Below, one piece after another: positions 8,854 through 27,500 of a stretch of 27,500 bases of DNA. A model generated the notes under the pieces. That model was not told the DNA's origin. It did no database searches and worked only from the letters and a program-made list of their open reading frames with translations. This stretch comes from Neocallimastix lanati (nom. inval.). Taxonomy: Eukaryota > Neocallimastigomycota > Neocallimastigomycetes > Neocallimastigales > Neocallimastigaceae. Position numbers and translations under genes: made by a program. The stretch covers positions 802,501-830,000 of the forward strand of contig JACVTC010000008.1 in assembly GCA_016946835.1 (NCBI GenBank), given 5' to 3'. The first letter of the stretch is position 1. Every line of letters starts with the position of its first letter.

Positions 8854-11800
8854 ATGTCTAAAATAATAAATTTATACATATGGATAATTCTTTGTTTTAT
8901 AAGTAATAATTAAAAAAAAATAATATAAAGATATAAAGATATAATATTTAATGTAATATATTATAAAATTATTATTAATTCAATATTAATTTTATTTTAT
9001 TTGTAAAAAAAATTTATAATATTTATAATTATATTTTAATTTTAATTGTTTGTTTTATTTAATACTTGCTATTACTATCAAAAACAAACAAACAAAAAAA
9101 AACAAAACAAAAAAAAAAAAAGATAAAATATATGGGAAAAATATTACATTGAATGTAGTGGCATATGCTACTGAAGATTATAGTAATATATATAAAACTA
9201 TGATTAATGATTTTAATGAGTACTCCATAAAAAAAGAATTAGATATATATGTTGATTTAACTGTCATTTCTAATTCAGATAGTTATGAATCCTATGCATC
9301 GATGGTACAAGCCTTATTGATGAAAAAAAACAATAATAAGTATGATTTATATTATTATGATAATGCCTATACTCAAGAATATGGACCGTACCTATTAGAT
9401 TTAGAGAAGTATTTACCTAAAGATCATATTGATATGTTCAATTCTAAATTACTTTCACAATCATGTATATATGAGAATAAATTAGTTGGACTAGTAAATA
9501 TAAAATATATATTATATATTGTATTTAAATTCTTTATTCAATATATATATTTATTTTTTAAATTTTTAATGAAAATAGTAAAATAAAAATAAATTAGAAT
9601 ATAATACAATAGAATATAATAGAGTAAAATATAATACAATAAAATATAATAAAATAAAATAGAATATAATAAAATAGAAATAAAATAAAAGATAATGAAA
9701 TAAATAGAAAAAAAAAAATCAATAAAAGTTCTTCATGACAAATAAATAAATATATATATTCATATATTTATATATATTATATATATATATATATATATAA
9801 ATTAAACATTTATATACAAATATAGCCTTATACCACTGCATATACTTTGCTATATTCAAATACAAAATTATTGAAAAAATATAATAAGAGAATTCCAAAA
9901 ACATGGGATGAATTAATTGAAACTAGTAAATATATTATGGAAAGAGAGAATGATCCTGAATTGATTGCTTATAATGGTTTATTCGATGGTTAATATTTTT
10001 ATTATTAAATTATTATTATTACTAGTATTTATTATTAGTATTTATTATTAGAATTTATTATTAGTATTTATTATGAAAATTCAGAAAAATAAAATTTTAA
10101 ATATAAATGAAAAAAGAAAAATTAATAATAATATAAAAAAAAAAAATAATAAATATAAAAGTATATAAATAAATATATATATAATTATATATAATTATAG
10201 AGAGTGAAAATGGTATTTGTTCAATTTATGAATTTATATATTCCTGTAGAAATTCTACTGATTCCCCGTTTCCAGATATAACAAGTGAAACCACTATTAA
10301 TGCATTAAATTTAATGAAAAAATTAAAAAAAGAAATAGCATCAGGTGTCTGACTAAAATAATAAAAACAAAATAAAAAAAATAATTATAAAATAAAAAAA
10401 AAAAAAAATAGAATTTTTTTTTGATTTTTGAAATTAATTAATTAATTAATTAATTAATAATATTAATGATAATCAATAATTCATATAATTACCTAAAAAA
10501 AAAAAAAAAAAAATGATTAACATTTTTTTAATTTATACAAATTATATATTTTTTATTCCTTTTATAATATATTTATTATTATTATTATTATTATTATTAT
10601 TATTATTATTATTTTTATTTTTATTTTTTTCTATATTCTTTTAATTTATAATTAATTTAAAAATACGTAAATAATAGATGATATTTTTCAATCAGATCTA
10701 TTTTTTGGTTTAAAGTTATTACTAGAAGGAAAAGGAATATTTGTGAAATTTTGGACTTTAGATTATAATTCTTTAGAAACTCTTTCATATAAAACATCAG
10801 TCTTACCAGGAATTAAAGAAGGAATATCAGGATCAGTAGTTGCTGGATACAATCTAGGCATTACTAACAATATTTCACCAGAAAAATTGGAGGCTTCTAT
10901 TATAGCTATTAAATATTTAACTTCAAAAGAACTTCTTAAAAAAATATTTTTAATAGAGAATATATTAGCAGGGATTGATAGTTTATATGATGATGAGGAT
11001 ATATGTAAAAAGGTAGATTGTGAAACGATGAAAAATATTCAACCGATTCATCGGCCTTACTCCAAATATTATGAAATAAAATTTTATAATCAAAAAATTT
11101 CTAATTTTGTTCTTCAATTTTTATATAAAAATGAAGAAGCCTCAGAAGTATTAGAAAAAATTAGAGATTTAACAAGAATCCATTATATCTCTGTCATCGA
11201 TAACGACGCATATAAAAGTTTAATCATGGTAATTTTTGTGATGACTCATATTTTATTTTATATGATTCTGTTCTCCTTAATCTTGCTTTTTTTCAAAAAA
11301 TTTGATGCAAAGTTCCAGTATTTATCCAAAGATTCTTGGATAATATCAATCATTGGATTAGCTATGGTCTTAAGTTCTATTTTTACTTTGTATGGAACAG
11401 TGACTGAGATAAAGTGTCAGCTTTACTTCATTCTAATTGTTATAGGTAATACATTAAATTTGATACCAGTTTTTCATAAATTTATTGTTGATTTTCCGGA
11501 AACCAATAAGATATCAATGTATTTTAAGAAACATAAATACTATTTTTTCCTTGGCTTTTTCATGTGTGATTTGATATTTGTTTTACTGCATTTTCTGAGT
11601 GATTATAAAGTGTCTACATTTATAATAGAGGATGGAAAAAATTATAGAGAATGCAATGTCATTGGTAAATTTGGCTTTAGCGTTGTAATAATTATAATAA
11701 TACATTACCTTTTGATTATTTGTGTTATGTTGATATTGAGTTATATTGAGTGGAATCAAAATTTTGTCATGTTTAATGTAAGAATGATGGTATATGCCAT

Positions 11801-24597: not shown

Positions 24598-27500
24598 ATG
24601 ATTGAAATTATATTTAGATACATATTTATAATACTCTTTTTTATAAGTAATAAATATTATTAATAATAATATCATATAAAAAAAAAAAAAAAAAAAAAAA
24701 TTAAATATTGAATTTTAGGAAATATTAATAAATAAATATATTTTTGATATTGATTTTTAATATAAAAAAAATTAACAATTAATTATTGGATCTTATTATT
24801 TAATTTTTTAATATTATATATATATATATATATTTTTTATTATCATTAATTTTTTATTATTTTTTACTTTCTTTTTTATTACTATTTATTGAAATCTTTT
24901 ATTAAAAAAAAAAGTTATAATTCATGGTAAAGATATTTCTTTGAATGCAATAGCATATACTCCTTATAATAGTGATCAATTTTATCATTCCATAATTGAT
25001 GATTTTAATGAGTATTCCGAAAAAAATAATTTAGGCATAAAAATTTATTTAACAGTCTGTGATATATATATTAATAATCAATCCTATGGATCAATGATAG
25101 AATCATTATTGAAAAAAAGCAGTAAATATGATTTATACTTTTATGATAATGCTTATACTCAAACATATGGACCCTATTTATTGGATTTAAAACAATATTT
25201 ACCTAAAGAACATATCGATATATATAATTCTGAGTTACTTTCACAATCATGTGAATATGAGAATAAATTAGTTGGATTAGTAAATATTTCAATTTGTTGT
25301 AACAATTAATTTGTCAATATAAATTCTTTATGAAGATTATAAAATAAAATAACATGAAATAAAATTGAATAAAATAATAAAATTGAATAAAATAATAAAA
25401 TTGAATAAAATAATAAAATTGAATAAAATAATTAAATAAAATAAAATAAAATAAAATAATATTATTAAATAAATAATTAAATAAATAAATAAGTAAATAA
25501 ATAAATATATGTGTAAAAAGATAATTAATATACATATATATATATTTCAAAATACATATATATATATAACAATAGCCTTATATCATAAATTATAACGTAC
25601 TATATTCAAATAAGAATTTATTAAATAAATATAATAAAAGAATTCCAAAAACATGGGATGAATTAATTGAAACAAGTAAATATATTATTGAGAGAGAAAA
25701 TAATCCTGAATTGATTGCTTATAACGGTTTATTTGATGGTTAATAGTTATTATATAATAAATATAATTATTAATGTTATATTTATTATTGTATTTATTTT
25801 ATTATTATTATTATTATTATTATTATTAATTAATTATTTAATTAATTAATAATAAGTTTTCAAATTATATATATTTTTTAAATAATTACAGAAAGTGAAC
25901 ATGGGATTTGTTCAATTTATGAATTTATATATTCATGTAGAAATTCTGTTGATGAACCATTTCCAGATATAAGAAGTAATACAACAGTTAATGCATTAAA
26001 TTTACTAAAAAAAATAAAAGAAGAAATAGCATCAGGTATTAAATATAACCAAAAAATAACAAAAATTAATAATTATAATATATATATATATATATTAATA
26101 AAATTTATGATAATTAATAATTCATTATTATATAAATTATTTTTTTCTTTCTTTATAAAAAATATTTATTTATTTTTTCCCTCTCATTTAAATAATAATT
26201 AATTCATATATATATATATATATATATTTACATATAAATAAAATAGATTATATATTTAATTCAAATTTAGATTTTTCTTTAAATTTATTACTTGAAGGAA
26301 AAGGGTTATTTGTAAAATTTTGGATCTTGGATAATTTCTTTTTTGATATTATTCCATATGAATTCTCAATACTACCAGGTATTAAGGAAGGAATATCAGG
26401 ATCAATAATTTCAGGATATAATTTAGGAATTGCCAATAGTATTTTACCAGAAAAATTAGAGGCATCTATTATTGCTTTTAAATATTTAATTTCAAAAGAA
26501 TTTAAAAAGAAATTGTCTTTTATACAGAACAAATATTTAGGAATTGATAGTATATATGAAGATGAAGAAATTTGTGAAAAAATAGATTGTGAAACAATAA
26601 AAAAACTTCAACTAACTAGTCGATCTTTCTCTAAATATTATGAATTTGATGATTATAACCAAAAAATAATTAATTATATTCATCAATTTTTATATAAAAA
26701 TCAAACGGCTTCAACAGTACTAGAAAAAATTGATGATTTAACTAGAATTCATTTTATTTCTATAACGGAAGATGGTAATTATAAAAAAGAAGCAATAGCA
26801 GTTTTTATGATAACTATTATTTTATTGGTTTCGATGTTTCTTTCCTTATTATTACTTTTTTTCAAAAAATTTAATGAAAATTTTAACTATATGTCTAAAG
26901 ATTCTTGGATTATATCTATTACTGGACTAATAATAATTATGAGTTCTATTTTTCCATCCTATGGAACATTAAATGAAATAAAGTGCAAAATCCAATTCGT
27001 TCTAATTTTTATGGGGAATTTGTTAAATTTGATACCAATTTTTCATAAGTTTATTATTGATTTTCCTGAATCTAATAGGATATCGGAATATTTTAAAACT
27101 CATAAATATTTCTTTTTCTTTTTTTATTTTATGAGTTGTCTAATATTTATTTTACTGAATTTATCATTCAAAGTTAAAGTGACCATAATTATAGTGGATG
27201 ATGGACAAAATTATAAAGAATGTAGTGTCAAGAATATTTATGGCTATATAATTATAACGATTACCATAATTTATTATCTATTAACTATTACTATCATAAT
27301 GATACTAAGTTACATTGAATGGAATCAAGAATCAGTAATGTTTGATGTGAGAGGGATGGTTTATGCCATTTATTCTGAAATACTCTTTATAGTTATACTT
27401 TTTATTTTTGAATTGATATCCATTAGTAATTATTTCTATCACTTTTTCATTAAAACATCTCTGTTATTAATATTAGGGACTATAAGTTATATATTAATAT
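24598..27500 (+). CDS. SBP-ectodomain seven-transmembrane receptor (class C GPCR-like), gene 3, cut by the window edge
   Basis: Predicted exons 24598-24646, 24915-25279, 25576-25738, 25892-26035 and 26247 to beyond 27500, giving 658 complete codons so far with phases identical to gene 1 and no stop. Exon 1 encodes the same signal peptide as gene 2. Ectodomain landmarks are DLYFYDNAYT, YGPYLLDLKQYLP, VLYSNKNLL, PKTWDELIETSKY, YNGLFD, SIYEFIYSCRN, FVKFWILDN and ISGYNLGIANS. The last exon continues through helices equivalent to TM1-TM6 and into TM7. The TM3 Cys (EIKC) and outer-loop Cys (YKEC) are both kept. It should end roughly 90 codons beyond the window if it has a tail like gene 1. Function as for gene 1: a cell-surface ligand sensor by domain content, ligand unknown. 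It is the intact sister of the dead gene 2. Confidence 0.85.
25360..25440. repeat. 18 bp tandem repeat in intron 2 of gene 3
   Basis: Four copies of ATTGAATAAAATAATAAA followed by AATAAAATAAAAT runs. The same intron in gene 1 (9600-9700) and gene 2 (15540-15700) is filled with related but differently arranged AATAAAAT/AGAAT repeats, so this intron is a repeat-prone site in all three paralogues. Confidence 0.85.

Follow-up and report, generated by a model that had tools for sequence, protein, structure and literature searches.

Predicted gut-fungal receptors that join a bacterial-type solute-binding ectodomain to a class C-like seven-helix domain, and the tandem array in which they lie

The window considered here, a stretch of 27,500 nucleotides (C741:802501-830000 of a 199-Mb assembly in 762 contigs), is extremely AT-rich and contains a tandem array of genes whose products are predicted to carry a type II solute-binding protein (SBP) ectodomain of bacterial type and a class C-like seven-transmembrane (7TM) domain in one chain. 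Dockerin PF02013 is so abundant in the genome (150 of the 150 scored matches, out of 1440 candidates, lie over the cut-off) that the host is taken to be an anaerobic gut fungus, such abundance being a mark of these fungi. By their sequence, gene 1 and copy 3 of the array belong to an already described, large family of gut-fungal SBP-7TM receptors, and as a whole explanation it is highly probable that gene 1 and the visible copy 3 encode cell-surface receptors that sense sugars and activate G proteins. The original prediction, an SBP ectodomain fused to a class C-like 7TM domain in a gut fungus, is supported as an interpretation, and the observation behind it is confirmed in part. The architecture itself has already been published, for Allomyces (Krishnan et al., 2012) and for anaerobic gut fungi (Seppälä et al., 2016); new here are the genome-wide count, the 17 contigs with G-alpha matches over the cut-off and the five paralogues that end after the ectodomain.

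Gene 1 (8854-12218, forward strand) has five exons separated by GT-AG introns, and its spliced product contains zero stops and comes to exactly the 755 residues that had been predicted. Its parts and the exons of copy 3 are as follows.

8854..8902, forward strand: gene 1 exon 1, with ATG, a hydrophobic segment resembling a signal peptide (by eye) and a GT donor in phase 1
9123..9493, forward strand: gene 1 exon 2, N-terminal part of the SBP ectodomain, an open frame with AG/GT borders
9826..9988, forward strand: gene 1 exon 3, SBP ectodomain with the motifs PYTTAYTLLYSN ... PKTWDEL
10201..10344, forward strand: gene 1 exon 4, SBP ectodomain
10678..12218, forward strand: gene 1 exon 5, SBP C-lobe (residues 243-415), seven hydrophobic segments (427-660), C-terminal tail and stop
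Residues 427-445, 462-480, 487-512, 532-559, 578-596, 612-639 and 642-660 of gene 1: hydrophobic segments from the hydropathy scan
24598-24646, 24915-25279, 25576-25738, 25892-26035 and 26247 to beyond 27500, forward strand: copy 3 exons 1-5, with borders and phases as in gene 1

Copy 3 remains open in frame up to the end of the window, and the following 5,000 bases read N, so that its 3' end lies outside view. The two proteins agree at 399 of 639 aligned positions (62%).

The ectodomain had been described as resembling bacterial SBPs and not the usual class C ligand-binding domain, and Pfam agrees: gene 1 matches SBP_bac_8 at E=9.6e-15 (55.5 bits against a cut-off of 27, residues 60-353) and SBP_bac_1 at E=3.2e-9 (37.7 bits against a cut-off of 26), copy 3 matches SBP_bac_1 (8.2e-11) and SBP_bac_8 (2.6e-7), both above the curated cut-offs, and in neither protein did the scan return an ANF-type family or the nine-cysteine domain (NCD3G) at E<=1. 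The animal class C receptors differ in this respect, their usual flytrap being of type I (ANF). The solved structures nearest to the ectodomain are SmoF (1.2e-13), MalE3 (6.5e-13), the ATP-binding cassette (ABC) substrate-binding protein 6jai and a trehalose/maltose-binding protein (7.6e-10), and with SmoF, MalE3 and the trehalose/maltose-binding protein it shares a sequence family. Unlike the bacterial sugar SBPs, the gut-fungal family is fused to receptor helices and has a C-lobe with a family-specific, invariant CX4C motif and Gln: C352, C357 and Q364 do not vary in any of 32 family rows, nor does N301 in any of 31 (the ectodomain cysteines of gene 1 are 131, 201, 210, 352 and 357). No mention of the CX4C signature was met in the parts on fungal class C receptors of the papers compared. 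At position 268, likewise in the C-lobe and aligned with a Trp of SmoF, 19 of 31 rows have W, and position 300, aligned with the Trp in the GGW stretch of SmoF, holds Y in 16 and F in five of 31. Aromatics of this sort stack on sugars in bacterial SBPs.

When bacterial genomes were scanned with the family alignment (A3, covering the part from exons 3-5, with L046 as its first row), at least 74 bacterial loci were found with 20-35% identity to the family ectodomain, 52 of the 74 matches listed being from Bacillota (titles read by eye); the scan with a single protein query gave zero matches. Sequence comparison thus points to no sharper donor of the ectodomain than bacterial SBPs, mostly of Bacillota among the matches listed. 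Of two bacterial loci inspected, one (L055) has, just downstream of the SBP gene, an open frame that by eye resembles a sugar-ABC permease; at the other (L054) no such frame was seen there.

Whether the ectodomain and the helices truly belong to one chain is answered largely by exon 5 of gene 1, in which the SBP C-lobe and all seven helices are encoded in a single frame. Since exons 1-4 are split by AT-rich introns and their joining is predicted from genomic sequence, one might suppose that the ectodomain exons and the helical exon lie on different transcripts, but this idea is nearly refuted: across the genome, 137 of the 150 scored C-lobe matches continue, after a gap of 3-45 bases and without a change of frame, into a helical domain, the second intron (exons 2/3) falls at the identical codon in all 15 loci where both borders were read, and among six paralogues that form a single open frame PF00003 (7tm_3) is over the Pfam cut-off in all six and SBP_bac_8 in five, which therefore carry both families over cut-off. 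The prediction of one chain thus stands up, and a type II SBP ectodomain with a class C-like 7TM domain is the predicted product. The figure of at least 137 fused loci counts recent or haplotype copies together; among the PF00003 places there are near-identical pairs, L015/L016 and the equally scoring C708/C750, which may represent haplotypes or duplications of recent date. Three loci (L043, L045 and L046, on C751, C643 and C412) form a subfamily in which exons 3-5 of gene 1 correspond to one unbroken exon and which gives clear PF00003 matches.

The class C relation of the helical domain appears through the relatives of gene 1. A hydropathy scan of gene 1 gave 11 overlapping peaks that merge into seven segments between residues 427 and 660, and the cysteines of the third helix (TM3, C489) and the second loop (C568), which the original prediction had regarded as kept, occur without exception in the 34 aligned family members. 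All of these 34 match PF00003 at E<=1, the best at 7.3e-18. Of the ten best places for gene 1 outside the window (8.3e-47 to 8.9e-39), eight exceed the Pfam cut-off for PF00003, among them C742:302035 with 48.5 bits; two of the ten (C468:278610 and C752:1842236) are not in the list of PF00003 places. A profile of the family 7TM domain, run against 177,635 distinct sequences of the PDB, returned 11 matches at E<=10, all of them GABA-B1, mGlu3 or mGlu4. The best is GABA-B, which likewise combines a Venus-flytrap domain with a class C 7TM domain and dispenses with the nine-cysteine domain. In GABA-B, however, the flytrap is of type I (ANF-like) and the receptor an obligate heterodimer, whereas the family of gene 1 has a type II SBP ectodomain.

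Several results weigh against this picture. PF00003 gives no match to the whole of gene 1 at E<=1, and for the isolated domain of 262 residues it reaches E=0.15, below the cut-off, so that of the two significant matches expected in the gene 1 chain the SBP one was obtained and the PF00003 one was not; gene 1 and copy 3 are both absent from the 131 PF00003 places of the genome scan. The best PDB match of the family profile has E=0.033, weak if taken alone, and an AlphaFold model of exon 5 built on a two-row alignment (gene 1 and copy 3) has a mean predicted local distance difference test (pLDDT) score of 34.6, too shallow a basis for fold comparison. For 13 of the 150 C-lobe loci the list contains no helical partner: five stop after the ectodomain, which can therefore exist without helices, C643:50415 is a disrupted sequence, three (C643:75088, C33:174389 and C190:246135) have an adjacent PF00003 place, and four (C760:227635, C135:1489676, C643:764587 and C268:123710) sit in long open frames. 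The L043 protein is listed with 7tm_3 alone and with no SBP family at E<=0.1, although in the genome scan its locus is over the SBP_bac_8 cut-off. Finally, SBP_bac_8 was found in only seven places of the genome, probably because introns cut the domain.

As to function, the two halves appear to be under comparable constraint, since the ratio of nonsynonymous to synonymous substitution rates (dN/dS) between gene 1 and copy 3 is well below 1 in exons 2-4, in the ectodomain C-lobe and in the helical domain (NG86: 0.40, 0.37 and 0.35, respectively; by region, LWL85 gives 0.46-0.51 and YN00 0.17-0.40). Over all 639 codons it is 0.37 (NG86), 0.49 (LWL85) or 0.23 (YN00), with the caveat that synonymous rates are doubtful in such AT-rich DNA. 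The genome also encodes candidate signalling partners, with 26 matches to RGS and 51 to G-alpha (PF00503) on 19 contigs, on 17 of which they are over the cut-off (a hand count in which haplotype copies are not separated); in the control set one bacterium matched PF00503, below the cut-off. Fungi mostly possess some three or four G-alpha genes, and compared with these the 17 contigs make the G-alpha set look expanded. Among the papers listed on Neocallimastix and heterotrimeric G proteins, none deals by its title with such an expansion, which is not proof of its being unpublished. PF00003 itself occupies at least 131 places in the genome (150 of 303 candidates scored), counts that refer to places and not to genes, and 61 of the 150 helical matches lie within 20 kb of another, in 16 pairs, four triples, three groups of four and one of five.

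From these data the following mechanism may be proposed. The signal peptide would direct the chain outward, and outside the cell the two-lobed type II SBP domain would close on a small sugar of plant origin, a di- or oligosaccharide being the likeliest; a short stalk devoid of the nine-cysteine domain would transmit the movement to the class C-like 7TM domain, placed in the membrane and, as we infer, dimeric, which would then activate a heterotrimeric G protein. A different function has been proposed for free SBPs, namely sequestration (Seppälä et al., 2016; PMC5168858), and the receptors of gene 1 and copy 3 could by analogy be surface sugar traps or adhesins, in which the SBP would keep sugars or plant matter close to the cell and the helices would be a mere anchor, with no G-protein signalling. 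Five paralogues do keep the SBP and lack the seven helices, and in four of these the chain ends in one hydrophobic tail, so that binding that does not lead to signalling exists in the family. A mere anchor, however, would need one helix only, while the helical part is constrained like the ectodomain, its cysteines are invariant over the 34 members and G-alpha and RGS genes are many, and such a role for gene 1 and copy 3 is accordingly held to be rather improbable. The sugar-sensing, G-protein-coupled receptor thus remains the preferred interpretation. Because bacterial relatives of the ectodomain are routinely purified and assayed for sugar binding, the question of the ligand is directly testable, and such SBP-class C receptors could account for the ability of rumen fungi and their zoospores to locate plant sugars and to rank them.

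Comparison with the literature places this family more closely. Seppälä et al. (2016; PMC5168858) described about 100 class C receptors from the transcriptomes of three gut fungi, 51 of them in Neocallimastix, almost half carrying type II SBP domains like those of prokaryotic sugar SBPs and none ANF, with which the earlier statement that receptors of this kind are expanded in gut fungi agrees; an ABC partner for the SBPs was not found in the transcripts of that study. The receptors described there resemble the present ones in having a type II SBP ectodomain, seven C-terminal helices, neither ANF nor nine-cysteine domain, and a gut-fungal host, and the two data sets differ in that those receptors come from transcriptomes, whereas the present ones are read in a genome of at least 137 fused loci, in a tandem locus that shows their exon structure and includes a pseudogene copy. 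In Allomyces macrogynus, SBP_bac_1 was reported on eight receptors of the Glutamate family (Krishnan et al., 2012; PMC3251606); what the two cases share is the fusion of SBP_bac_1, or of another domain of the PBP clan, to 7tm_3 in an early-diverging fungus, whereas the phylum is another one, the best match of gene 1 is SBP_bac_8 and its 7tm_3 is more diverged. SBPs and class C GPCRs (G-protein-coupled receptors) rise in a Caecomyces co-culture with a methanogen, their function being called unknown there (PMC8665504, 2021), and a census of fungal GPCRs has listed 918 Glutamate-class receptors from 1357 fungal species (PMC12842992, 2025).

The five helix-less paralogues (C-lobe loci L128-L132: C26, C323, C58, C13 and C9) carry ectodomain exons and stop right after them, with no seven-helix domain. 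SBPs of gut fungi that lack a receptor part but bear helices at the N or C terminus are already on record (PMC5168858, section 9 and legend of Fig. 5); the kinship of such helix-less SBPs with the receptors is the new detail. Four of the five end in a Ser/Asn-rich stretch followed by some 20 hydrophobic residues that run to the stop, an arrangement resembling a glycosylphosphatidylinositol (GPI) signal, and C58 is the one with no hydrophobic tail. The genome also encodes Gpi16, a component of the GPI transamidase. Among the four tailed paralogues dN/dS is 0.41-0.75 (NG86), a sign of mild constraint. In an unrooted tree of 51 C-lobes they form a clade (93/97, just below the support threshold) nested in a well-supported set of 14 (97/96), the remainder of which are receptors; because C58 falls elsewhere in the tree, apart from this clade, at least two changes of state are needed. 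The tree was built with no outgroup: of six bacterial loci tried for that purpose a single one matched over a usable length, and none was taken. Judged from these sequences, loss of the helices is likelier than a state preceding the fusion, though not proven. About 6.6 kb separate C13 from receptor L033; the tree sets L033 beside the helix-less clade with weak support (82/54).

The genome count suggests that these receptors are a main sensory system of the fungus. One may go further and tentatively imagine a chemosensory system on the scale of those of animals, made from bacterial SBPs, with at least 137 SBP-7TM loci, many of them in tandem, and an enlarged G-alpha set, in which the helix-less lines would tune signalling as decoys or as co-receptors that present sugars; if true, the analogy would be with bacterial SBPs that serve chemoreceptors. 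It is conceivable, at a similarly low level of confidence, that within such a system at least two paralogue lines have shed their helices, namely the clade of four with a C-terminal anchor (GPI or single-pass) and one line with no anchor.

The array also documents the birth and death of its members, which adds to the record an example of this process and not a new principle. Apart from gene 1 and copy 3, it contains the following features.

14744-14792, 15076-15448, 15801-15963 and 16077-16220, forward strand: copy 2 exons 1-4, with the same borders as in gene 1; pseudogene
17620..17741, forward strand: remnant of the end of the copy 2 helical exon, 70% identical to gene 1 11916-12032
18108..24024, forward strand: copia-type long terminal repeat (LTR) element between copies 2 and 3, from LTR alignment, with pol-like frames named by eye; outside the receptor system

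In copy 2 the frame shifts at an A run near 15280, in exon 2, and downstream the intact helical exon is gone, its terminal fragment alone being left; because of this broken frame and this loss, copy 2 is read from its sequence as a pseudogene, a dead gene. The three paralogues with common exon borders and phases that had been predicted are therefore found as two, gene 1 and copy 3, with copy 2 keeping the borders of exons 1-4 and failing as a third intact member. As A runs are prone to sequencing errors, the frameshift could be a homopolymer error of the assembly and all three copies working receptors; yet the helical exon of copy 2 is absent except for the C-terminal remnant, other sequence with copia-like scraps occupies its place, and a copy that has lost this exon would yield at most a truncated secreted protein, which makes three working receptors very unlikely. 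A working secreted SBP was also considered for copy 2 and is ruled out by the frame break in exon 2. Over the intact exons 3-4, dN/dS between copies 2 and 3 is 0.77 (NG86, 102 codons), with too few changes to weigh. At 16857-17290, where the helical exon of copy 2 is missing, there are scraps that by eye resemble decayed copia integrase/pol.

At the DNA level the identity is 80% between copies 2 and 3 and 70-73% between either of them and gene 1; the array probably arose by tandem duplication, with copies 2 and 3 as the younger pair, between which the copia element inserted. No further receptor copies were found within 20 kb on either side of the window, 12.5 kb of these 40 kb reading N, the 5 kb in which copy 3 must end included. 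The LTRs of the copia element (18113-18355 and 23776-24019) are nearly identical, with one substitution and one indel, and GTTAA flanks the element on both sides, for which reasons the insertion is probably recent; its coding stretch is broken by stops near 19228, 19525, 20056, 20688 and 22518.

Elsewhere in the window, at 6759-7259, lies an open frame of about 166 residues with one N-terminal hydrophobic helix and a Pro-rich PPPPSYES, which we take to be a PPxY-like motif; a Pfam scan of 165 residues of this frame gave zero matches at E<=0.1. At about 5000-5590 a tandem repeat with a unit of roughly 60 bases, starting TGTTTGAATACTTTTATATATATTTATTTATAATT, was recognized by eye, and upstream of copy 2, at 13948-14453, about 500 bases consist almost purely of a TAA-type repeat.

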